A DNA stretch of 64,000 nucleotides from positions 1-64,000 of the forward strand of contig NZ_LGTQ01000009.1 in NCBI RefSeq assembly GCF_001306455.1, read 5' to 3'. Made by a program: the position numbers and the translations under genes. Shown here in pieces: positions 12,415-22,174 of this stretch; the stretch's first letter is position 1; every line of letters begins with the position of its first letter. The stretch is from Jiulongibacter sediminis (GTDB taxonomy: Bacteria > Bacteroidota > Bacteroidia > Cytophagales > Spirosomataceae). The notes under the pieces are model-generated. The model was not told the origin of the DNA. It was given only the letters and a program-made list of their open reading frames with translations, and did no database searches.

Positions 12415-13737
12415 TTACACCTTATTGACTAATCTGTTTTCTTCGGGAATATCATCTATGTCACCGATCTCTATGCCGTACCGCATATAAGCCGGTGTGT
12501 TTTCAATATTCTCTTTCACACTGTCATCTTTCGCAAAGGTAACAGCAGTTTCACGGAGTTTTTCTTCAGCCTCAAAAAGACCAAACTGGTTTTCTTCGTA
12601 AGGTTTTGGCTTTTTCTTTTTGGCCGTGGCAGAATTTGGACTAGCTATCCCCGGCATATTAAATGAGGCAAAAGGGCTGTCTTCCTGAGTCTCAAACTCG
12701 TTTTCAGGAGTTGTTTCTTTCTTCGTTTTTTGATTTTCAGCACCAAAATCGGTGATACCTGCAGCCACAATGGTCACTCTGATTTTATCCTCAAGAGACG
12801 TATCAATAGAATAACCATGCTTTACAATTTTTGCTTTGGTTTTGATCTGACTCTCAATAAATTTCATGATCATCGCCTGATCACTCATCTTGATCTTATA
12901 CTCCGGCTTTTCATTGGAGTATGAAATAGACACCAATAAACGCTTAGAGCCTTTAATACTGTTGCTATGCAATAAAGGTGATTTAAGAGCCTCTTCCACC
13001 GCAATTTTAGCTCTGTCAACACCAGAGGCTTCGGCTGAGCCCATCACGGCTTGTCCGGCATTTTTCAATACCGTTTTTACATCGGCGTAATCCAGATTGA
13101 TAATACCTGGTCGGGTGATCAGTTCAGCAATGCTTTTGACGCCGTTGGCAAGAATCCCGTCGGCCCTTTCAAAAGCCTCCTGAATATCCATATCATGGAA
13201 AAGGTTTTCAAGGCGGTCATTTTTTACGATCAGAACGGTATCGCAGTATTCCTTCATCCGCTCTATACCTTCCATGGCCTGTTCAATTTTCTCAGAACCT
13301 TCCCAACTGAATGGGTCAGTGACTACGCCTACTGTCAGCATGTCCTTTTCCTTTGCTATCCTGGCAATAACAGGAGCGGCACCGGTTCCTGTACCACCGC
13401 CCATACCTGCGGTAATAAAGACCATTTCGGTCGGTGGTTGAAAAAGTTTATGAATTGCGTCTTCGCTTTCCAGAGCGGCTTCTTCGCCCACTTTTGGGAT
13501 GGCACCAGCCCCAAGGCCCTTGGTAAGTTCAGCTCCAAGCTGGAGACGTGACATGCCAAGTGGCAAATCTTTAAGTACCTGAAGGTCTGTATTAGCGGCA
13601 ACAATATCTACGTCAGCAATACCCATTTTGTGAAGTGTCTTAACGGCATTACCGCCGGCACCTCCAACACCTATCACCTTGATGATATTCGGCATTTCTG
13701 AGTCGAAATCGAGTTCATAATCCTGATCGTATAACAT
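12415..13737 (-). CDS. ftsZ: Cell division protein FtsZ
   Basis: A 440-residue tubulin-like GTPase that polymerises into the division ring. The nucleotide site is visible as [10 protein letters not shown] (residues 23-32) and the signature GGGTGTG at 113-119. The T7 loop follows in [10 protein letters not shown]. Up to about residue 325 the fold is conserved. The remainder is a charged linker ([17 protein letters not shown]) and a C-terminal segment [20 protein letters not shown] that probably meets FtsA. It is the last gene of the ftsW-murG-transferase-ftsQ-ftsA-ftsZ cluster, 38 bases after ftsA, and is followed by a terminator. Confidence 0.97.
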
Positions 13738-13775: not shown

Positions 13776-15128
13776 TTATTCGCCGTAGGCTCTTTTCAGT
13801 TCAGGGTCATCGAAAATATCGCGAAGTTTATTTACCAGGGGTAAACTTGAAAAAAAACCGAGAGACATCCTTCTTTTCACCGGTGCCGTCTGACCAAGTG
13901 GCATTCGCTCATCAGCGGGTTTAATTGATGCCAGCATGGTACCAATGGCTGTTGTATATTTCGGGTGAGCCAGCTCCAGTTTAGTATTGATGTCAATATT
14001 GACGGTTCCGTCTGCAATTCTTATCGCCAGTGGCGAAAAGGTCTTCTGGAAAGTCATTTTTGTCAATCCCAGTCGGGCAATCCCACCGGCCAGCATAATA
14101 CCATTTGCTAGCAAACGTGCGTAGCCACTTTCAATAACGTCAGAGGCAATAAGTGCCGCAATTTCTTTGAGACGGCTTTCAATAACTATGGCCACAGCTT
14201 TCTGCAAAAACTGCCGTGTAGGCAAGCCGTTTTTGCCTTCAATTTCCAGCACCTCGTTGATCTCAATATCTTTACTTCTTTTCTCGCCGGAGGCTCTCAT
14301 CAATCGCTCGGCCTGGGCTTCAGTGACGTTAAAGGCCTGTGAAATATCCTTAATAATGGCTTCAGAACCAATGCCGATAACACGGCTATATCGTAGCCCG
14401 AAATCTTTATAAATTGTAATTTCGGTGAGTTGTGAACCAATGTTTACCAGTAAGATACCCGCCTGTTTATCCTCGATTGTAATAGACGAAAGGGCATCTG
14501 CCACCCCATTATATACCAGTTGGTCTATGTGAACATTAAGGGTTTCTTTACTGCCTTCCACCATTTCATAGCTAACAGCATCAAAAGTCTGCATATGCTC
14601 TTCAACTTTACCTTTATCTACGTTGATGGCATTGAAAATACAGGTGAGTTTATTTCCGGTAGCTCCTTTAGGATACTTTCCAACTTTACTTTCATCAATG
14701 AAGAAATCTGTAGGCATGACGTGGAGAGTCTCTTTTGAGTTATCTCTTTTAAGTTGCTTTTTCAGATTTTGAGAAAGCTCATCCAGTTCATAATTTTTGA
14801 CAACAAATTTATTTCCGTCGTTTGTCAGGTCCTGCTTAATACTCTTCAGGCTTATCTTTTCGCTTGAGAAGTTGGTGTTGGTCAGTACAATCTCCAGATT
14901 GGTTTTCTGCGACAACTCCTGTAGCACTCTTTCAATGGCATCGGTTACGTTGCCTTTGTTCTTAGCAGCACCTTTTGACATAGCTTCATAATCGGCATCG
15001 TACACCGTTTCGGCATAGTCAAGTATGGTAATCTTACCACCCGGATCAAGTTTGCCGGCTACTGCACATACTTTTGAGTTGCCAATATCAAGGCCGACGG
15101 AGTAGGTTGGTTCTTTGTTGTCTTTCAT
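13776..15128 (-). CDS. ftsA: Cell division protein FtsA
   Basis: A 450-residue actin-like ATPase that anchors FtsZ to the membrane. The phosphate-1 loop is SVGLDIGNSKVCAVAG near the N-terminus. A second nucleotide-binding region is ILLVNIGSQLTEITIY, and the adenosine motif is LAGGIARLG. The C-terminal FFSSLPLVNKLRDIF can form an amphipathic helix, as expected for membrane targeting. It lies between ftsQ (35 bases upstream) and ftsZ in the standard order. Confidence 0.95.
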   Translation of the reverse strand: MKDNKEPTYSVGLDIGNSKVCAVAGKLDPGGKITILDYAETVYDADYEAMSKGAAKNKGNVTDAIERVLQELSQKTNLEIVLTNTNFSSEKISLKSIKQDLTNDGNKFVVKNYELDELSQNLKKQLKRDNSKETLHVMPTDFFIDESKVGKYPKGATGNKLTCIFNAINVDKGKVEEHMQTFDAVSYEMVEGSKETLNVHIDQLVYNGVADALSSITIEDKQAGILLVNIGSQLTEITIYKDFGLRYSRVIGIGSEAIIKDISQAFNVTEAQAERLMRASGEKRSKDIEINEVLEIEGKNGLPTRQFLQKAVAIVIESRLKEIAALIASDVIESGYARLLANGIMLAGGIARLGLTKMTFQKTFSPLAIRIADGTVNIDINTKLELAHPKYTTAIGTMLASIKPADERMPLGQTAPVKRRMSLGFFSSLPLVNKLRDIFDDPELKRAYGE

Positions 15129-15163: not shown

Positions 15164-15922
15164 TTATTCGCAGACCACCTGGTTTTTATACTGCACTTTT
15201 ACGGTGGAGAATTTATCCCAACCTTTTACAGGCATAATTTGCTGGTAGTATACTTTTAGTTTATTGAGTTTTGCTTCTATGTCGGTGGCAGAGCCAAATT
15301 CGATGATATGATCTCCCAGAACCGGTACAAATCTGATTTGCCCTTTACGGTCAATATCCATTTGAGCCATCTGAGCATTCCAGAAGTCATCGTTTTTGAT
15401 AGTATGTACCAACTTCATAAGGTGTTCGTCTTCTGCACTAAGATTTGGTGCCGAATTGAAAAAACTACCCGTTAGTAGCAGTACACGCTCTGTATGTAGT
15501 TTTGAAAGAGGAAAATACCTGCCTTCTTTATCAATATACTGGTCTTTGCCATTTCCAGCAATCACCCTCGCATACGGAATAAATGGTTTGATTTTGATGT
15601 GGATATTACCCTGTAAATCACCAAAGGCTTCGCAATGTTCTACCTGCTTTATCTCGCTAACCCGTTTCTCCAAAGCGGCCAAATTTATATCGGCCAAAAG
15701 CATTCCTTTTAGTGGTTCGTTACCATTTTTGGTTACATATTTTTCAATATCCTCTTCCGAGATATAATATTGATCATTGTTATCAATGAGCTCAATTTCA
15801 ATATTTTTACAACGCTTGACCCTTGCCTTATCATCTACAAAAGCGATAAGTGAAATCACCACGGCCAGACCTAGAAATGCCAGACCGTATTCTTTGATTT
15901 TGTTTGCTTTCAGATTTTTCAT
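15164..15922 (-). CDS. ftsQ: Cell division protein FtsQ
   Basis: A 252-residue bitopic membrane protein of the divisome. A short cytoplasmic N-terminus is followed by one transmembrane helix (about residues 11-29, YGLAFLGLAVVISLIAFV), then a periplasmic POTRA-like region and the FtsQ beta domain. Sequence conservation in FtsQ is low, so the call rests on topology, length and position directly before ftsA. It starts 2 bases after the stop of the preceding transferase-like gene, so the two are tightly coupled. Confidence 0.88.
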   Translation of the reverse strand: MKNLKANKIKEYGLAFLGLAVVISLIAFVDDKARVKRCKNIEIELIDNNDQYYISEEDIEKYVTKNGNEPLKGMLLADINLAALEKRVSEIKQVEHCEAFGDLQGNIHIKIKPFIPYARVIAGNGKDQYIDKEGRYFPLSKLHTERVLLLTGSFFNSAPNLSAEDEHLMKLVHTIKNDDFWNAQMAQMDIDRKGQIRFVPVLGDHIIEFGSATDIEAKLNKLKVYYQQIMPVKGWDKFSTVKVQYKNQVVCE

Positions 15923-15924
15923 TG

Positions 15925-16701
15925 TTACAGGTCGTTAAGAAAGTTATTGGGTTCACCCATTGTCTTGAAGTGGTCAGCAGTTTTGGGGTCAAGATCAGTT
16001 TTGCAGAGTTCTTTCAGTTTTTTGGTATCGGTATTCCACTGAGTGCCGTCCCAGTATTCGAGGGCCTTGTGATCTCTGATTTTGTAAAGAGCTGCTGGTT
16101 TATAGGCTGTGCCCAGATAAACGTACTTCAACCCCTGACTCTTTGACCAATCAATAGCCTTCCACATCATGTATTTACCCAGCGAATGGGTTTTCATGTA
16201 TTCGGTATCAAAAAAAGCAAACCAGTAGTGCAGCATGTCAGACCCAACGGCTGCGAGAATGTAACCCATCGTTTTCTCCTGATTGTAAAACTTCAGGATG
16301 TGAGTTCCAATACTGCTGGCCAGGATGTAATTCCAACGCTCCACACTCATATTTTCAGACCCAATTCGCTCTGCGATATAGCTTTCGCAAAAAGATTTGA
16401 AGTCGGGATCGTTTAGGTCAAAATCACTTTTCTCAATTACCTCCAGCTTTACATTTAGTGGTTCTATCTGTCTGCAAACTCTACGGTTTTCGGAGCTGTC
16501 GGTAAAGTTATCCAGATCCACTCTAAGGCTTCTGGCCAGGTAGAAAACTTCGCTTTCTAAACCCAGATTTCCCGTATAGGGCAAAAAGCCCTTGTCATAG
16601 ATTGGTGACAGGTCTTCTCTACCCTCACGCTTCGCGTAAATGGCATACGAAAAGGTGTAGCTGCTGTAATCGACGGTATTTTCTGAGAAAAATATTTTCA
16701 T
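15925..16701 (-). CDS. Arginyl/leucyl-tRNA-protein transferase-like GNAT protein in the murC position
   Basis: A 258-residue cytoplasmic protein. Residues 160-210 (FAFFDTEYMK, SLGKYMMWKAIDW, GLKYVYLGTAY) resemble the C-terminal GNAT half of ATE1/Bpt aminoacyl-tRNA-protein transferases. Residues 36-82 resemble the N-terminal half (GFLPYTGN..FYLARSLRVDLDNF..RRVCRQ). Such enzymes add Arg or Leu to protein N-termini, creating N-degrons. The N-terminal cysteines typical of the family (CxxC and CC) are missing: the only cysteines are C76, C105 and C233. The ATG overlaps the murG stop (ATGA), and ftsQ follows after 2 bases, so it is an integral member of the division operon in the place murC usually holds. 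Acceptor and donor are unknown; an acyltransferase of another kind is possible. Confidence 0.65.
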   Translation of the reverse strand: MKIFFSENTVDYSSYTFSYAIYAKREGREDLSPIYDKGFLPYTGNLGLESEVFYLARSLRVDLDNFTDSSENRRVCRQIEPLNVKLEVIEKSDFDLNDPDFKSFCESYIAERIGSENMSVERWNYILASSIGTHILKFYNQEKTMGYILAAVGSDMLHYWFAFFDTEYMKTHSLGKYMMWKAIDWSKSQGLKYVYLGTAYKPAALYKIRDHKALEYWDGTQWNTDTKKLKELCKTDLDPKTADHFKTMGEPNNFLNDL

Positions 16702-17804
16702 TTCCCTATGATGTTTCTTACCTCTTTGACGATGTCCTGAGCCGCATTTGGCTTGGCAAACGCTTTTATATTTTGCTTTAAAGTTTTCTGTAATTGAGGG
16801 TTTTCAGCCAATTCAAGACACTGATCTATCAACTCATTATTTACCTCACTATCCTTTACCATGAGTGCAGCTTCTTTATTGACCAGGCTCAAAGCATTTT
16901 TTGTTTGATGATCCTCAGCTGCCGCCGGGAAAGGCACCAGAATAGCGGGTTTACCCGTGAGGCAAAGCTCAGATACTGACAAAGCTCCTGCTCTAGAGAT
17001 CACTAAATCTGCCGCGGCGTAAGCTTTATCCATTTCATACACAAAATCAGAAATGTAGGTATCAGTGTATCCTGCTTCTTCAGCTGCTGCCTTTGCTTTT
17101 GGCAAGAAGCGTTTACCCGTTTGCCAGATTAGCTGAAGTCCATGGTTTTTGAGTTTGTCCAAACCTTTGGCTACACCCTTATTGATACTCAATGCCCCCT
17201 GGCTACCTCCAATAACCAAAATGGTTTTCTTATCTCTTGATAAACCAAAATGAGACAGGGCGGTCTCCTGATTTTCGTCAAGCTCAATAATGTCTTTCCT
17301 CACCGGATTACCGGTAAAAACGACTTTTTCCTCAGGAAAAAACCTTCCCATTTCAGGATATGCTACGCATATTTTTGAGGCTTTCCTTGCCAGATATTTA
17401 TTGGTGATACCAGCGTAAGAGTTTTGCTCCTGCAGCAACGACTTTACCCCCAGCATATTGGCCATCAGTAATGTGGGTCCGCTGGCGTAACCACCTACAC
17501 CTATAGCGATATCGGGCTTAAACTCTTTTACTGTTTTACGAGCCATTCCCAGACTTTTAAGAAGTTTGAGAGGAAAACCAATATTCGCAAGCATGTTTGA
17601 GCGGTTAATTCCGGCAATCGGGAGCCCAACAATTTCGTATCCTGCTTTTGGTACCTTCTCCATCTCCATTTTTCCTTGTGCACCCACAAAAAGAATATTG
17701 GCCTCAGGCAGCTGAGCTTTTATCTCATTTGCTATGGCTACAGCAGGATAAATATGCCCTCCTGTGCCACCTCCACTGATAATTACGTTTACCGGCTTAC
17801 TCAT
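16698..17804 (-). CDS. murG: UDP-GlcNAc:lipid I N-acetylglucosaminyltransferase MurG
   Basis: A 368-residue GT28 glycosyltransferase making lipid II at the inner face of the cytoplasmic membrane. The N-terminal glycine loop is GGGTGGHIYPAVAIA (residues 11-25). The second loop is GGSQGALSIN, and the UDP-GlcNAc site includes SRAGALSVSEL and PAAAEDHQ. Both ends overlap neighbours by 4 bases (ATGA with ftsW upstream and with the transferase-like gene downstream), which indicates translational coupling. Confidence 0.96.
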   Translation of the reverse strand: MSKPVNVIISGGGTGGHIYPAVAIANEIKAQLPEANILFVGAQGKMEMEKVPKAGYEIVGLPIAGINRSNMLANIGFPLKLLKSLGMARKTVKEFKPDIAIGVGGYASGPTLLMANMLGVKSLLQEQNSYAGITNKYLARKASKICVAYPEMGRFFPEEKVVFTGNPVRKDIIELDENQETALSHFGLSRDKKTILVIGGSQGALSINKGVAKGLDKLKNHGLQLIWQTGKRFLPKAKAAAEEAGYTDTYISDFVYEMDKAYAAADLVISRAGALSVSELCLTGKPAILVPFPAAAEDHQTKNALSLVNKEAALMVKDSEVNNELIDQCLELAENPQLQKTLKQNIKAFAKPNAAQDIVKEVRNIIGK

Positions 17805-18991
17805 CGTGCCTTATTGGACAGGGTTTCGAACTGTTGATTTTTTGATACTGAAAGCACAATACCGATAGCAATGAATGTGAACAAAATTGAAGTTCCACCT
17901 TTACTGATCAGTGGTAATGTTTGGCCGGTTACCGGACCAAGTCCTACATTGATGAACATATGGGCCAGTGCTTGAAAAACAATGCTGAGAGTAAGACCAA
18001 TACTCAATAAACCACCAAAAGCCTGTGTAGTATTCGCAATATTCTTAAGCCCCCGGGCAAGCAGCCAAAGGTAAAGAAGCATAATAGCGACTCCACCGAC
18101 TAAACCATACTCTTCAATGATGATAGCATAAATAAAATCAGAATAAGCCTCAGCCATTCGGTGCTTGATAGCACTTTTCCCCGGCCCTACGCCAAAAATA
18201 CCACCGCGAGCTACCGCAGCGATGGCCTGATCTTGCTGCATACTTACACTACCGATTTTTCCGCCGATGAGGTCATTTCCGTCGAGATCTTTACCGATGA
18301 AAGATTCAGTGCGGTTGATGATAGTCTCTGTTCTACCGAAATTCTTATTGAAGACAATTTTAGTAAACAAACCTGCACTGAAAGCCAACACGAGACCTAA
18401 TAGGACAGAACCCGTCAGTCGAAGTATGTATTTGCGAGGCACCCGCCCGATAATCATAATCATAAAGCAGGTAAGTCCCAGAATTACCGAAGTTGAGAAG
18501 CTGGATATCGCCAATAAAAAGCAGATAATACCACACCAGATAATGATAGGCCAAAGATGTTTAAACTTATCCATGGTATTTTGCTTTTTGGCCAACATAG
18601 CTGCCAGATTGGTAATCAAAACCAATCTGACCATATCTGAGGTCTGAAATGTAAAACCTAAAAGTGAAATCCAACGCTTGGCTCCTCCTACTTCGTAACC
18701 CATCAAGAGGGTGTAAAGAAGTAGTAGTGGTGACACCCAAAGAAGAACTTTGGCCACCGGGGCTATATTCAGAAAATTGAAACGATGAATGACGTAAGTA
18801 AGAAACAGTCCGGCCAGCACAAAAAATGCATGACGAAACATGATCATTTCGGATGTTCCTGAGCTTCTGTAAGCTAATGCTGAGATAGAGCTGTATACTG
18901 CCGCAATACCGAAGAAAGAAAGGAGAAATGTAATCAACCAAATCTGAGGGTCGCCCTGCAGATGGTCTTTGAGTTTAAAACCAGTCATCAC
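17801..18991 (-). CDS. ftsW: Lipid II polymerase FtsW (SEDS family)
   Basis: A 396-residue membrane protein with about ten transmembrane helices, the septal peptidoglycan glycosyltransferase. SEDS landmarks are GGAKRWISL, FQTSDMVRL (the usual QPSE becomes QTSD), GVGPGKSAIKHRMAEAYSDFIYA and the C-terminal GQTLPLISKGGTS. It is the first gene of the cluster here. murD and murC are not found upstream: the next gene, mscL, belongs to another unit with its own terminator. A promoter is visible at 19058-19087. Confidence 0.95.
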   Translation of the reverse strand: MMTGFKLKDHLQGDPQIWLITFLLSFFGIAAVYSSISALAYRSSGTSEMIMFRHAFFVLAGLFLTYVIHRFNFLNIAPVAKVLLWVSPLLLLYTLLMGYEVGGAKRWISLLGFTFQTSDMVRLVLITNLAAMLAKKQNTMDKFKHLWPIIIWCGIICFLLAISSFSTSVILGLTCFMIMIIGRVPRKYILRLTGSVLLGLVLAFSAGLFTKIVFNKNFGRTETIINRTESFIGKDLDGNDLIGGKIGSVSMQQDQAIAAVARGGIFGVGPGKSAIKHRMAEAYSDFIYAIIIEEYGLVGGVAIMLLYLWLLARGLKNIANTTQAFGGLLSIGLTLSIVFQALAHMFINVGLGPVTGQTLPLISKGGTSILFTFIAIGIVLSVSKNQQFETLSNKAR

Positions 18992-19180: not shown

Positions 19181-19588
19181 CTATTTCTTCAAAGCGTCTC
19201 TGATTTCAGTCAATAAATCAATCTCAGTCGGTCCTTTTGGAGCTTCTTCAACCACAGGCTCCGGCTTTTTGGTTTTATTATATGCCTTCACAATTGCAAA
19301 TAGCACTAAGCCAACAGTAATCAAATTAATGATGGCATTAATCCATGCACCATACCGTATAGCATTTTCAGGTTTTTCAACAGTTCCGTCAGCTGCTACT
19401 ACAGCCGGATCAAGCACAACTTTGAGGTCTGCGAAGTCCAAACCACCTGCAAAATGTCCCACAATCGGCATGGCAATGTCTGAAACAAATCCGTTAACAA
19501 CCAGGCCAACAGCCCCAGCAAGAATAACCGCTACGGCAAGGTCTATGACATTGCCGGTCATAATGAACGCTTTAAATTCTTTAAACAT
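19181..19588 (-). CDS. mscL: Large-conductance mechanosensitive channel MscL
   Basis: A 135-residue inner-membrane channel that opens under strong membrane tension and releases solutes on osmotic downshift. TM1 holds GNVIDLAVAVILAGAVG, TM2 is AIINLITVGLVLFAIVKAY, and the C-terminal bundle ends LLTEIRDALKK. The periplasmic loop is long (residues about 45-78). It lies 33 bases after the DUF3078 gene and before a strong terminator, so it is likely the last gene of the unit started by the ECF sigma factor at 22174. Confidence 0.95.
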   Translation of the reverse strand: MFKEFKAFIMTGNVIDLAVAVILAGAVGLVVNGFVSDIAMPIVGHFAGGLDFADLKVVLDPAVVAADGTVEKPENAIRYGAWINAIINLITVGLVLFAIVKAYNKTKKPEPVVEEAPKGPTEIDLLTEIRDALKK

Positions 19589-19621: not shown

Positions 19622-20527
19622 TTATAAAGCTAATGAGAAGCCGGCTGAAAGCCCCTGACTTATCTGGAATTTCTCGACCTGATCTGCGTCGTAAATTCCA
19701 ATTAGTGAAAAGTTTACATTAAAATACTTCCCGATTTTCGAAGTGGCAATCAGGTTAATGTTATGATCAATAGGCTTGGTTTCAGGAGCATAAGCCAGGA
19801 ACCCCTGATATCTCCATTTCAGGTTGAGGCTCTCTGTTAGGTTTTTATCAAAAGCCGCTACGGCTTGAAGACCCATTTCATTTAGCAGACTTTTTCCACG
19901 TTCCACACCATAAGAGCGGTCAATCCCTTCAACATCTTTGAATGTATTTTCAAAAACGGTTTCATTACCCACAAATGTCTGACGAATGGTAGCACCACCG
20001 AGCTGTACGACAAAATAGTCAATAGGCTTATACTCAACACCTACACCTTCTGAAAGAAATGCGGGAGCAAAGAGATTTGAAATCATATTACCACGGTCAC
20101 CATTATTCTCAAAGTTATAACCTGCAGAGAATTGTGTGAGCAGATTAACACCGGCAAACCAATTAAGTTTAGGAGTAATTGAACTCGCATACTTTGATTC
20201 GGCAAAAAGGCGGTCAACACTCTTACGAAGATCAAGGCCTTTATTTCTTAAGAAACCGTACTGAAATTGGATATCGTTTGTCCAGACTCCCTTGCCTTTG
20301 TGCTTAACAGCAAGGTTGTTAAAGAGGAAGCCAAGAGCAAAATTATTTACGCCGCCACCTTGCCATGGGTCATTAAATGATGCTTGTGAAAAATTAACGG
20401 CCAGCTGTGTGTTTCTATCCCACCAGCCCACACGAAGGGAATCTTCGCGATTTTGAAGTACGACTTCCTGGGCGGAGACTTGATATGCCATCAGGCTGAT
20501 AAAGAGAAAGGAAAACAAACGTTTCAT
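19622..20527 (-). CDS. DUF3078 family outer-membrane protein
   Basis: A 301-residue protein with a signal peptide (MKRLFSFLFISLMAYQVSAQ), followed by alternating amphipathic strands ending in a terminal hydrophobic residue (AGFSLAL), as in outer-membrane beta-barrels. The segment NFSQASFNDPWQGGGVNNFALG is characteristic of the Bacteroidota DUF3078 family. It starts 18 bases after the MscS-like gene, which suggests a role in the same envelope or osmotic response. Molecular function unknown. Confidence 0.82.
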   Translation of the reverse strand: MKRLFSFLFISLMAYQVSAQEVVLQNREDSLRVGWWDRNTQLAVNFSQASFNDPWQGGGVNNFALGFLFNNLAVKHKGKGVWTNDIQFQYGFLRNKGLDLRKSVDRLFAESKYASSITPKLNWFAGVNLLTQFSAGYNFENNGDRGNMISNLFAPAFLSEGVGVEYKPIDYFVVQLGGATIRQTFVGNETVFENTFKDVEGIDRSYGVERGKSLLNEMGLQAVAAFDKNLTESLNLKWRYQGFLAYAPETKPIDHNINLIATSKIGKYFNVNFSLIGIYDADQVEKFQISQGLSAGFSLAL

Positions 20528-20545
20528 AAATAAAAATTATCGGTT

Positions 20546-21376
20546 TTATGATTTGTGAATGATGATTTTTTCAGATTGTAATACTCTTAACGGAAACACG
20601 GTTTCGGTCTCATCACTTTTGAGAGTAATTGAGGTATTATCAACTTTTATAACTTCACCTTTTACCTCTTTAATTTCAAGAATTTGCCCCTCATTATAAC
20701 GGTTTTTTGAATAAAAGGAGCTAATGATATTCAGTAGGATTTCTTTCGAGGCAAAGCCATAACCAATAGAGAAAGAGAGAATTATACCTGCAATAAGAAT
20801 ATTGAAACTACTTTCAAGCAAAGTAGTATTAATGCCGGCCTGACCCAATGCTGCAATGATCACAATAATGATCAGGAAAAAGAAAACGGCCATTCCTATC
20901 AACTTCCCGGAAGCGATATTGAAAGACTCACAAAGGCCTACAACAAACGACTTTACCGCATCAGCCAAAAGAAGACCAGCAAGTATCATAATGGCCGCAG
21001 AAATAACCTTAGGGATAAATTCTACCACCATAGCAAACATGTTAGAAATGGCCGGAACCCCCAGTGTATCTGCTGCTGTAATCAGGAAAAACAGGAAGAT
21101 AAAGAAGTAGACGATTTTTGAGACGATCTTGCTGAGCTTGATATCAAGGTCAAACTTTTTAATGGCATCAATCTCATTGATTTTCTCACCAAGTTTATCT
21201 ATTCCTAGTTTTGAGAAGATATTCTTGAGAACTGTACTCGCAATTTTGGCCGTGAGCCAGCCTACCAGAATTACGACTAATGCTCCGATAAAATTTGATG
21301 TAAACTCACTGAAATTTGTAATGAGGTTATCAAAAGTTCTGATTAAAATGTCTTTCAGGTTAGGTAGCTTATTCAT
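20546..21376 (-). CDS. Mechanosensitive ion channel family protein (MscS-like)
   Basis: A 276-residue inner-membrane protein with about five hydrophobic segments (near residues 28-50, 88-108, 125-145, 158-180, 188-208) of the conserved TM-helix repeat type. A short MscS-like beta domain follows: NRYNEGQILEIKEVKGEVIKVD. The conserved pore region FSIGYGFASKEILLNI precedes it. Such channels respond to membrane tension. It overlaps the preceding 67-residue gene by 8 bases and is followed by DUF3078 and mscL, giving two mechanosensitive channels in one apparent operon. Confidence 0.87.
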   Translation of the reverse strand: MNKLPNLKDILIRTFDNLITNFSEFTSNFIGALVVILVGWLTAKIASTVLKNIFSKLGIDKLGEKINEIDAIKKFDLDIKLSKIVSKIVYFFIFLFFLITAADTLGVPAISNMFAMVVEFIPKVISAAIMILAGLLLADAVKSFVVGLCESFNIASGKLIGMAVFFFLIIIVIIAALGQAGINTTLLESSFNILIAGIILSFSIGYGFASKEILLNIISSFYSKNRYNEGQILEIKEVKGEVIKVDNTSITLKSDETETVFPLRVLQSEKIIIHKS

Positions 21377-21572
21377 TTGGAGTCAGGGGTTTACTTGGTT
21401 GTAGTTCTTCCAATAGTTTCATGCCTATGCGGAAAGGCTCTCCCATAAACATATTGGCCATGACCATGGTGTCTCTAATGATGTCAATTTCAGAAACCAA
21501 TTGTTTTTTTACCCGATCTGATCGTTCAAAACGGTCATTGGGGTTTAAATCGAAAACATTGTCTTTTTCCAT
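21369..21572 (-). CDS. Small hypothetical protein coupled to the ECF sigma factor
   Basis: A 67-residue soluble protein without membrane segment or cysteine. It has a charged N-terminus (FDLNPNDRFERSDRVKKQLVSEID) and a methionine-rich middle (TMVMANMFMGE). Its ATG overlaps the sigma-factor stop by one base (TAATG), and its end overlaps the MscS-like gene by 8 bases, so it is a genuine coupled gene. Position suggests a regulator of the sigma factor, but nothing in the sequence resembles a known anti-sigma domain. Confidence 0.65.
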   Translation of the reverse strand: MEKDNVFDLNPNDRFERSDRVKKQLVSEIDIIRDTMVMANMFMGEPFRIGMKLLEELQPSKPLTPNE

Positions 21573-22174
21573 TATTTTCTAAATAAAAGTAATATTTTGA
21601 GTACAAAGAGACTGATAAGAATGACGTGCTCCAGATACAGTTTCTTCATTTTTTCTTTCGTTCTGAGTAACCTCATTTTGGTGGCACTTTCAGAGATTTG
21701 AAATGTTTGAGCAATCTCTTTAATGCTGAACTCATCCTGATATTTCATCAAAAGCATGGCTTTTTCATCAGGAGATATTTCTTCGAGGCTTTTCTGTAAG
21801 CCTTCTTTTTTCATACTCAGGAGCTCGTGATCTACGTTCTCTTCTACAAACTCCATAGGCTCCTCGAGGCTATCCTCCTGTAACCTCTTTTGTTTTCTCA
21901 ACATATCCATACAGTAGTTATATGTTATGGAGTACAGCCAGGTAGAGAATCTTGCACTTTCTTTGAAGGTGCCTATTTTGGTAATCACCTTTAGGAAGAT
22001 ATCATGTGTAAAATCTTCGGCTTTAGCCTGATCTTTTACAAAGGATAAGCACTTGCGGTACACTTTTTCTGAGTACCGCTCATATAACTCTTCAAAATAG
22101 AGGTTTTTCTGTGAGGAAACGTATAGCCTCACAAGTTCTTCATCCTTCAAAGTTCCGGGTTCCTGGTTGTTCAT
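21572..22174 (-). CDS. ECF-type RNA polymerase sigma factor with hydrophobic C-terminal tail
   Basis: A 200-residue sigma-70 family factor of the extracytoplasmic-function group. Region 2 covers about residues 25-95 (AEDFTHDIFLKVITKIGTF, ARFSTWLYSITYNYCMDMLR). Region 4 covers about 125-180 (ISPDEKAMLLMKYQDEFSIKE, SATKMRLLRTKEKMKK). The last 18 residues contain the hydrophobic stretch VILISLFVLKILLLF, long enough to touch or cross the membrane, which is unusual for a sigma factor. It heads an overlapping gene series: 67-residue protein, MscS-like channel, DUF3078, MscL. Autoregulation is likely but I cannot define the promoter. Confidence 0.88.
   Translation of the reverse strand: MNNQEPGTLKDEELVRLYVSSQKNLYFEELYERYSEKVYRKCLSFVKDQAKAEDFTHDIFLKVITKIGTFKESARFSTWLYSITYNYCMDMLRKQKRLQEDSLEEPMEFVEENVDHELLSMKKEGLQKSLEEISPDEKAMLLMKYQDEFSIKEIAQTFQISESATKMRLLRTKEKMKKLYLEHVILISLFVLKILLLFRK

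Follow-up and report, generated by a model that had tools for sequence, protein, structure and literature searches.

What does a gene resembling aminoacyl-tRNA-protein transferases do in the division cluster of Jiulongibacter sediminis, at the very place where relatives encode MurC? In standard accounts of cell-wall synthesis, MurC and MurD carry out essential steps found in nearly all bacteria, and both have long been drug targets; the question bears on how this bacterium makes the first part of its peptidoglycan stem. The cluster was analysed within a stretch of 64,000 nucleotides (the window) and compared with genomes sampled across the phylum.

On the minus strand of the window the order of genes is sigma-70, mscS, OMP-type, mscL, ftsW, murG, the ATE-like gene, ftsQ, ftsA and ftsZ (Table 1). 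The initial annotation had described a 258-residue gene between murG and ftsQ at 15922-16701, overlapping murG by 4 bases, lying 2 bases from ftsQ and belonging to the operon. The minus-strand open reading frame and both junctions, read letter by letter, bear out the gene; its end at 16701 stands, while the other boundary was 3 bases off and lies at 15925. The stop codon of murG and the ATG of the ATE-like gene are shared as ATGA at positions 16698-16701, and the TAA of the ATE-like gene is separated from the ATG of ftsQ by CA, so by placement the gene is a member of the division-cluster operon. The neighbouring ftsQ scores 20.1 bits against the Pfam FtsQ model, for which the cut-off is 21, and automatic annotation may leave it unnamed.

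Table 1 Features of the division-cluster region, in window coordinates
Feature	Position	Strand	Evidence
ATE-like aminoacyl-tRNA transferase gene, 258 aa	15925..16701	-	ORF, Pfam and NCBIfam profile matches, structure model, family alignments
murG, 4-base overlap with ATE-like gene	16698..17804	-	ORF and Pfam
ftsQ, 2 bases downstream of ATE-like gene	15164..15922	-	ORF, weak Pfam FtsQ match
ftsW, 4-base overlap with murG	17801..18991	-	ORF, Pfam, locus comparison
ftsA	13776..15128	-	ORF and Pfam
ftsZ	12415..13737	-	ORF and locus comparison
mscL	19181..19588	-	Locus comparison of the window with L160
Conserved upstream block (OMP-like, mscS, sigma-70)	19622..22174	-	Collinear with relatives keeping murC and murD

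Profile searches relate the protein to arginyltransferases. Pfam ATE_C (PF04377) covers residues 105-197 (39.2 bits, cut-off 25; E 1.2e-9), and NCBIfam arginyltransferase models match at E 3e-14, the best with 52.9 bits, far under the cut-off of 170. Pfam gave no match to the ATE_N domain, whose CxxC...CC zinc cysteines are strictly conserved in ATE1 (PMC10115844). Neither a CxxC nor a CC motif was found in the 258 residues, where the three cysteines are at positions 76, 105 and 233, in agreement with the initial annotation, which had reported the N-terminal cysteines of the family as absent. No FemAB-family profile matched the protein at E up to 1, and searches for Mur ligase domains, with their ATP-binding GKT motif, gave no Mur ligase profile match. 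Alignments A1 and A2 of the ATE-like family contain 43 invariant columns over 25 members.

Because searches of PDB sequences with the protein or its profile returned only weak or irrelevant matches, a comparison of structures was needed. A first model built with 19 close relatives (pLDDT 72) was superseded by an AlphaFold2 model built with a wider set of 25 relatives (pLDDT 89.4, pTM 0.86). The top PDB structural match of this model is human ATE1, aligned over nearly the whole chain (278 alignment columns, query-normalised TM 0.61), followed by yeast ATE1, E. coli LFT, FemX, MprF, L-PGS, A-PGS, and the aminoacyl-tRNA-dependent peptide synthases Sba18 and Sbb17. Since all 50 of the listed structural matches are aminoacyl-tRNA transferases or domains of these, the modelled fold identifies the protein as an aminoacyl-tRNA-dependent transferase and not an ordinary acetyltransferase. 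Both ATE halves are present in the model, so that the two-part pattern read from the sequence at the outset is recovered in the ATE_C match and across the whole chain of ATE1, and a plain GNAT protein devoid of the ATE half was not seen. By itself, the predicted fold match fixes neither the donor amino acid nor the acceptor.

The place of the gene in the cluster was then compared with that in relatives. In G004, a genome of the same family that lacks the ATE-like gene, the order is sigma, mscS, OMP, mscL, murD, ftsW, murG, murC, ftsQ, ftsA and ftsZ, and murC likewise lies between murG and ftsQ in the sister genomes G017, G027 and G075, none of which carries the ATE-like gene. In such relatives murD is found directly upstream of ftsW, which in G004 means between mscL and ftsW. 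The J. sediminis block is collinear with this order except that murD is gone and the ATE-like gene has taken the place of murC. The gene is thus in the murC position, as first stated, with murC in exactly that slot in relatives lacking it. The initial annotation had also counted the presence of murC at this spot in such relatives as evidence against its reading; taken literally the comparison goes against it, yet the pattern found, murC in the same slot, fits gene replacement. The ATE-like gene occupies the murC slot, with murD excised, in families f1 and f4, and sits elsewhere in f21, f6, f8 and Saprospiraceae MAGs. Named carriers include several Emticicia species and one Lacihabitans strain, in which murG, the ATE-like gene and ftsQ stand in a row and no murC or murD occurs within the segment examined.

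Both missing genes were also sought throughout the J. sediminis genome (4.47 Mb, 99.92% complete). A profile search of the whole genome found MurC absent, the best match to the MurC model being Mpl with 217 bits against 335, and MurD had no match at cut-off; the remaining matches recovered were MurE, MurF, MurF-Alr and FolC. Since these genome-wide searches find neither ligase, murC and murD did not relocate. Among 39 relatives, eight genomes have a strong homologue of the ATE-like protein (E below 1e-50), and these are 8 of the 9 that lack MurC and MurD. A profile built from A1 was searched against 392 genomes of the phylum, where it gave 2 clear matches, and against samples of 251 genomes from the order and 180 from another order; true members scored over about 160 bits and all other matches under 50 bits.

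MurC and MurD are both absent from 18 of the 19 genomes with the ATE-like gene, which belong to families f1, f4, f6, f8, f21 and f88. Among genomes of the order sample at least 90% complete, all 7 carriers lack both ligases, compared with 3 of the 205 non-carriers (Fisher p 3e-11, with no correction for relatedness). Carriers in f1 have five Mur-ligase matches per genome compared with mostly seven otherwise; being exactly two fewer, these counts indicate that no extra ligase fills in. In f1, f4 and f21, sister genomes that do not carry the ATE-like gene have retained both ligases, encoded within the division cluster or, in G483, at another place, and because of these contrasts the link is not the history of one clade. 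The f1, f4 and f8 sequences form separate groups in the gene tree, several forks of which are poorly supported. In these comparisons, presence of the ATE-like gene tracks absence of both ligases across lineages, and the gene is the sign of a form of cell-wall synthesis that does without MurC and MurD.

It is very improbable that the two ligases instead escape detection through divergence or gaps in the assemblies, the correlation being an artefact of a few related genomes. Many of the genomes are MAGs, relatedness accounts for part of the correlation, and the searches over 180-251 genomes scored the best 6-10 candidates per genome; the MurC result in G458, G533, f21 and f8 except G031 comes solely from these (in many of these genomes the best 6-10 were all candidates). 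However, MurC and MurD in the 39 relatives and MurD in all carriers come from smaller searches in which all or nearly all candidates were scored, and the searches for the two ligases recover the more distant Mpl, MurE, MurF and FolC. In addition, the f1, f4, f6 and f21 genomes are 95-100% complete, contrasts between sister genomes are seen in three families, and an otherwise collinear cluster has lost murC and murD.

The same distribution bears on another reading, in which the protein acts in the N-end rule as a genuine Bpt/ATE-like aminoacyl-tRNA-protein transferase, adds a tag to a division or wall protein, and lies in the cluster by chance. The ATE_C and arginyltransferase profile matches and the ATE1 structural match would be expected of such an enzyme, but the protein has no ATE_N domain and no zinc cysteines and scores far under the family cut-offs. 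Tagging also leaves the exact murC-slot position and the MurC/MurD loss in 18 of 19 carriers unexplained, as well as the retention of the family even in genomes of 1.1-1.6 Mb, and we consider it unlikely. The initial annotation had listed two options: addition of an N-terminal amino acid to a division or wall protein, which fails to account for the genome-wide absence of MurC and MurD, and changed chemistry as a peptidoglycan-precursor transferase, which agrees with the murC slot and the MurC/MurD loss. It did not mention the loss of the two ligases, a part played by Mpl or a connection with the epimerase, and the finding is accordingly wider than first described.

We therefore propose, as the best and probably correct explanation in its general outline, that the ATE-like enzyme and Mpl, with an epimerase where L-Glu is used, replace MurC and MurD. 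A transferase of the ATE/LFT/FemX fold, soluble, located in the cytoplasm and dependent on aminoacyl-tRNA, would take over the work of both ligases together by moving L-alanine from Ala-tRNA onto the alpha-amino group of free glutamate to give L-Ala-Glu. If the acceptor is L-Glu, the resulting L-Ala-L-Glu would be turned into L-Ala-D-Glu by an L-Ala-D/L-Glu epimerase of the enolase superfamily, and in MurI-keeping genomes D-Glu may be the direct acceptor. Mpl would join the dipeptide to UDP-MurNAc, and MurE and MurF would then complete the pentapeptide. With L-Ala-D-Glu ready made, MurC and MurD would both become superfluous if a ligase attaches the dipeptide to UDP-MurNAc, and because Mpl can attach such a dipeptide, their joint loss would be explained without a further enzyme.

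Enzymes of this fold take an aminoacyl group from tRNA and pass it to an amine. Free Glu is a plausible acceptor because it resembles the N-terminal Asp or Glu whose amino group is acylated by ATE and Bpt enzymes. An alanyl-tRNA:glutamate transferase is the best-supported function, although the exact donor and acceptor are less sure than the general route; we infer the donor (Ala-tRNA), the acceptor (Glu), the product and a de novo biosynthetic role of Mpl. It appears reasonably likely that the pathway is an essential de novo route in which a tRNA-dependent L-Ala-Glu synthase acts first, the D configuration is introduced by the epimerase, and the finished dipeptide is joined to UDP-MurNAc by Mpl. 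Literature searches found no description of this MurC/MurD-free route; its components come from known superfamilies and its end product is the usual precursor, but the route, if confirmed, would be one for which we found no described precedent.

Two other assignments were considered and rejected. Action of the ATE-like enzyme directly on UDP-MurNAc was ruled out, the lactyl carboxylate being no amine and unable to accept an aminoacyl group to form an amide. The J. sediminis genome has two MurF-type genes (L003, L004), and a second MurF-type ligase was evaluated as a stand-in for MurD; relatives with MurC and MurD also have MurF-type matches, and the f1 carriers are two ligases short.

Mpl is normally a recycling enzyme. 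It is kept with intact motifs in all 14 of the carriers aligned, and its sequences broadly follow species groups with no obvious shift between carriers and MurC/MurD genomes. Mpl from P. aeruginosa slowly accepts L-Ala-D-Glu, with low activity, and uses L-Ala weakly, while an E. coli murC mutant is rescued by overexpression of mpl (PMC3060825). The low activity on the dipeptide and the lack of a sequence shift speak against the proposed role of Mpl. The use of L-Ala, the rescue of the murC mutant and the presence of Mpl in all genomes checked would also suit an arrangement in which Mpl substitutes for MurC using free L-Ala, an unrecognised enzyme replaces MurD, and the ATE-like enzyme acts elsewhere in wall synthesis, for example in modification of the stem or of lipid II. 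That arrangement is improbable: Mpl is equally present and unchanged in genomes with MurC, a replacement for MurD is still required although the f1 carriers have lost two Mur ligases and gained none, and there would be no reason for both genes to vanish together when the ATE-like gene appears.

For the dipeptide route, evidence on the epimerase comes chiefly from G199, a 100% complete genome without MurC, MurD or MurI, in which the ATE-like gene overlaps a gene for an enolase-superfamily dipeptide epimerase. The best PDB match of the G199 epimerase is the protein of entries 3iji, 3ijl and 3ijq, which we take to be a Bacteroides L-Ala-D/L-Glu epimerase, followed by named dipeptide epimerases; NCBIfam models for L-Ala-D/L-Glu epimerase and N-acetyl-D-Glu racemase are both listed for it, neither above cut-off. 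The two genes adjoin only in G199 and are apart in most carriers. An epimerase homologue occurs in 16 of the 18 carriers without MurC and MurD, with a fragment in G016 and none found in G498 (79% complete). All 14 of the aligned sequences from these carriers retain the two catalytic lysines as well as DxD, a motif that marks dipeptide epimerases. As many genomes that keep MurC and MurD also encode the epimerase, which would serve recycling there, the overlap in G199 is the only strong epimerase evidence.

The configuration of the acceptor can be approached through MurI, which reaches cut-off in 5 of the 18 carriers (J. sediminis and four other f1 genomes), while a match over cut-off is missing in 13, including three at 100% completeness. 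Because so few carriers have MurI, L-Glu as acceptor with later epimerisation is favoured, at least outside f1. The J. sediminis genome contains both MurI and an epimerase (L201), so for this organism either order, L-Glu followed by epimerisation or direct use of D-Glu, is compatible with the gene content. A sub-version of the same dipeptide route, in which the acceptor is D-Glu everywhere, from MurI or another source, and the epimerase serves recycling only, is possible but doubtful: it accommodates MurI in the five f1 carriers and the epimerase in MurC/MurD genomes, and has against it the 13 carriers without a MurI match over cut-off and the overlapping genes of G199.

Several further observations concern epimerase-like genes. 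Five genomes that keep MurC and MurD (G005, G009, G027, G433 and G075) have no MurI match over cut-off; each of the five has an epimerase homologue. In reduced f8 genomes, at L202:7122-9270 on the minus strand and at matching loci, a gene resembling the epimerase is next to a DUF1611 gene or overlaps it, followed by a gene of beta-lactamase fold; this pair may be an N-acetyl-Glu racemase system rather than a dipeptide epimerase, and the retention of this second type of epimerase in f8 was discounted as evidence on account of its position beside DUF1611. Two neighbours of the ATE-like gene considered as epimerases were also discarded: the ORF of ~343 aa in Saprospiraceae MAGs turned out to encode an MreB-type protein (L020, L021), and reading of the neighbour in G745 showed no epimerase.

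The one exception among the 19 carriers is G734, a Bacteroidota MAG (83% complete, 850 contigs) with the ATE-like gene, MurC in the division cluster and a MurL-MurD2 fusion. The fusion is a 910-aa frame at L149:6263-8992 (minus strand) matching the MurL-like model NF041275 with 262 bits, under cut-off, and the MurD model TIGR01087 with 359 bits; no MurI match was found in this genome, whose gene content may reflect chimeric binning or an intermediate state. A separate observation concerns the reduced genome G498, in which the ATE-like gene appears split over two frames with stops (L127, L109), through decay or sequencing error.

Conversely, no MurC, MurD or ATE-like gene was found in G471 (100% complete) or G036 (93%), and the same holds for many of the reduced f8 genomes and for some of the partial MAGs. 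In G036 (1.6 Mb) the cluster at L159:1-8697 reads murE-mraY-ftsW-murG-ftsQ-ftsA-ftsZ, with the murC and murD slots empty. In G471, where no clear MurI was found either, mraY is followed by ftsW with no murD in between at L142:12537-19900, and beyond ftsW the cluster is interrupted, the next gene being that of proline dehydrogenase. Since G036 and G471 keep Mpl and the epimerase, these genomes may have a second, unrelated dipeptide synthase or a diverged member missed by the profile, and the ATE-like gene may not be the sole solution to MurC/MurD loss.

If the proposed route is correct, a lineage that uses a tRNA-dependent transferase and a recycling ligase in place of MurC and MurD would change the near-universal picture of this pathway, and Mpl and the dipeptide epimerase would become biosynthetic enzymes. 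Wall synthesis would be tied directly to tRNA charging, the first cell-wall peptide bond being drawn from translation's charged tRNA, and such bacteria are predicted to be indifferent to MurC or MurD inhibitors. The route would also explain the gene labelled 'arginyltransferase' by profile models at the murC place in Emticicia-like bacteria.

In relation to known systems, the ATE-like protein shares with Bpt and ATE1 the two-part fold of a mixed beta sheet and a GNAT domain, the ATE_C profile and a near-whole-chain match to ATE1. Unlike them, it lacks ATE_N and CxxC...CC, falls far under the NCBIfam cut-offs and lies in the murC slot, and its proposed acceptor is free glutamate rather than a protein. 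FemX uses charged tRNA to add Ala to a peptidoglycan precursor, and FemX/MurM-type enzymes and alanyl-PG synthase are likewise GNAT-fold aminoacyl-tRNA transferases; however, only part of the Fem fold matches the ATE-like protein (FemX, TM about 0.41), and Fem enzymes add a side branch to the finished stem, whereas the ATE-like enzyme is proposed to form the first stem bond before attachment to UDP-MurNAc. The ATE-like protein is of a fold unrelated to that of MurC and MurD, has no ATP-binding Mur domain and would draw its energy from the aminoacyl ester. In the Xanthomonas MurD2/MurL pathway, L-Glu is incorporated first and epimerised afterwards, so that D-Glu is not needed (PMC5808125). The proposed route resembles it in using L-Glu first with later epimerisation, and differs in that the epimerase would act on the free dipeptide and that MurC and MurD are both gone. 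Finally, as in Mpl recycling, a preformed peptide would be ligated to UDP-MurNAc, but known Mpl salvages old wall peptides alongside MurC, whereas here it is proposed to be an essential de novo ligase.
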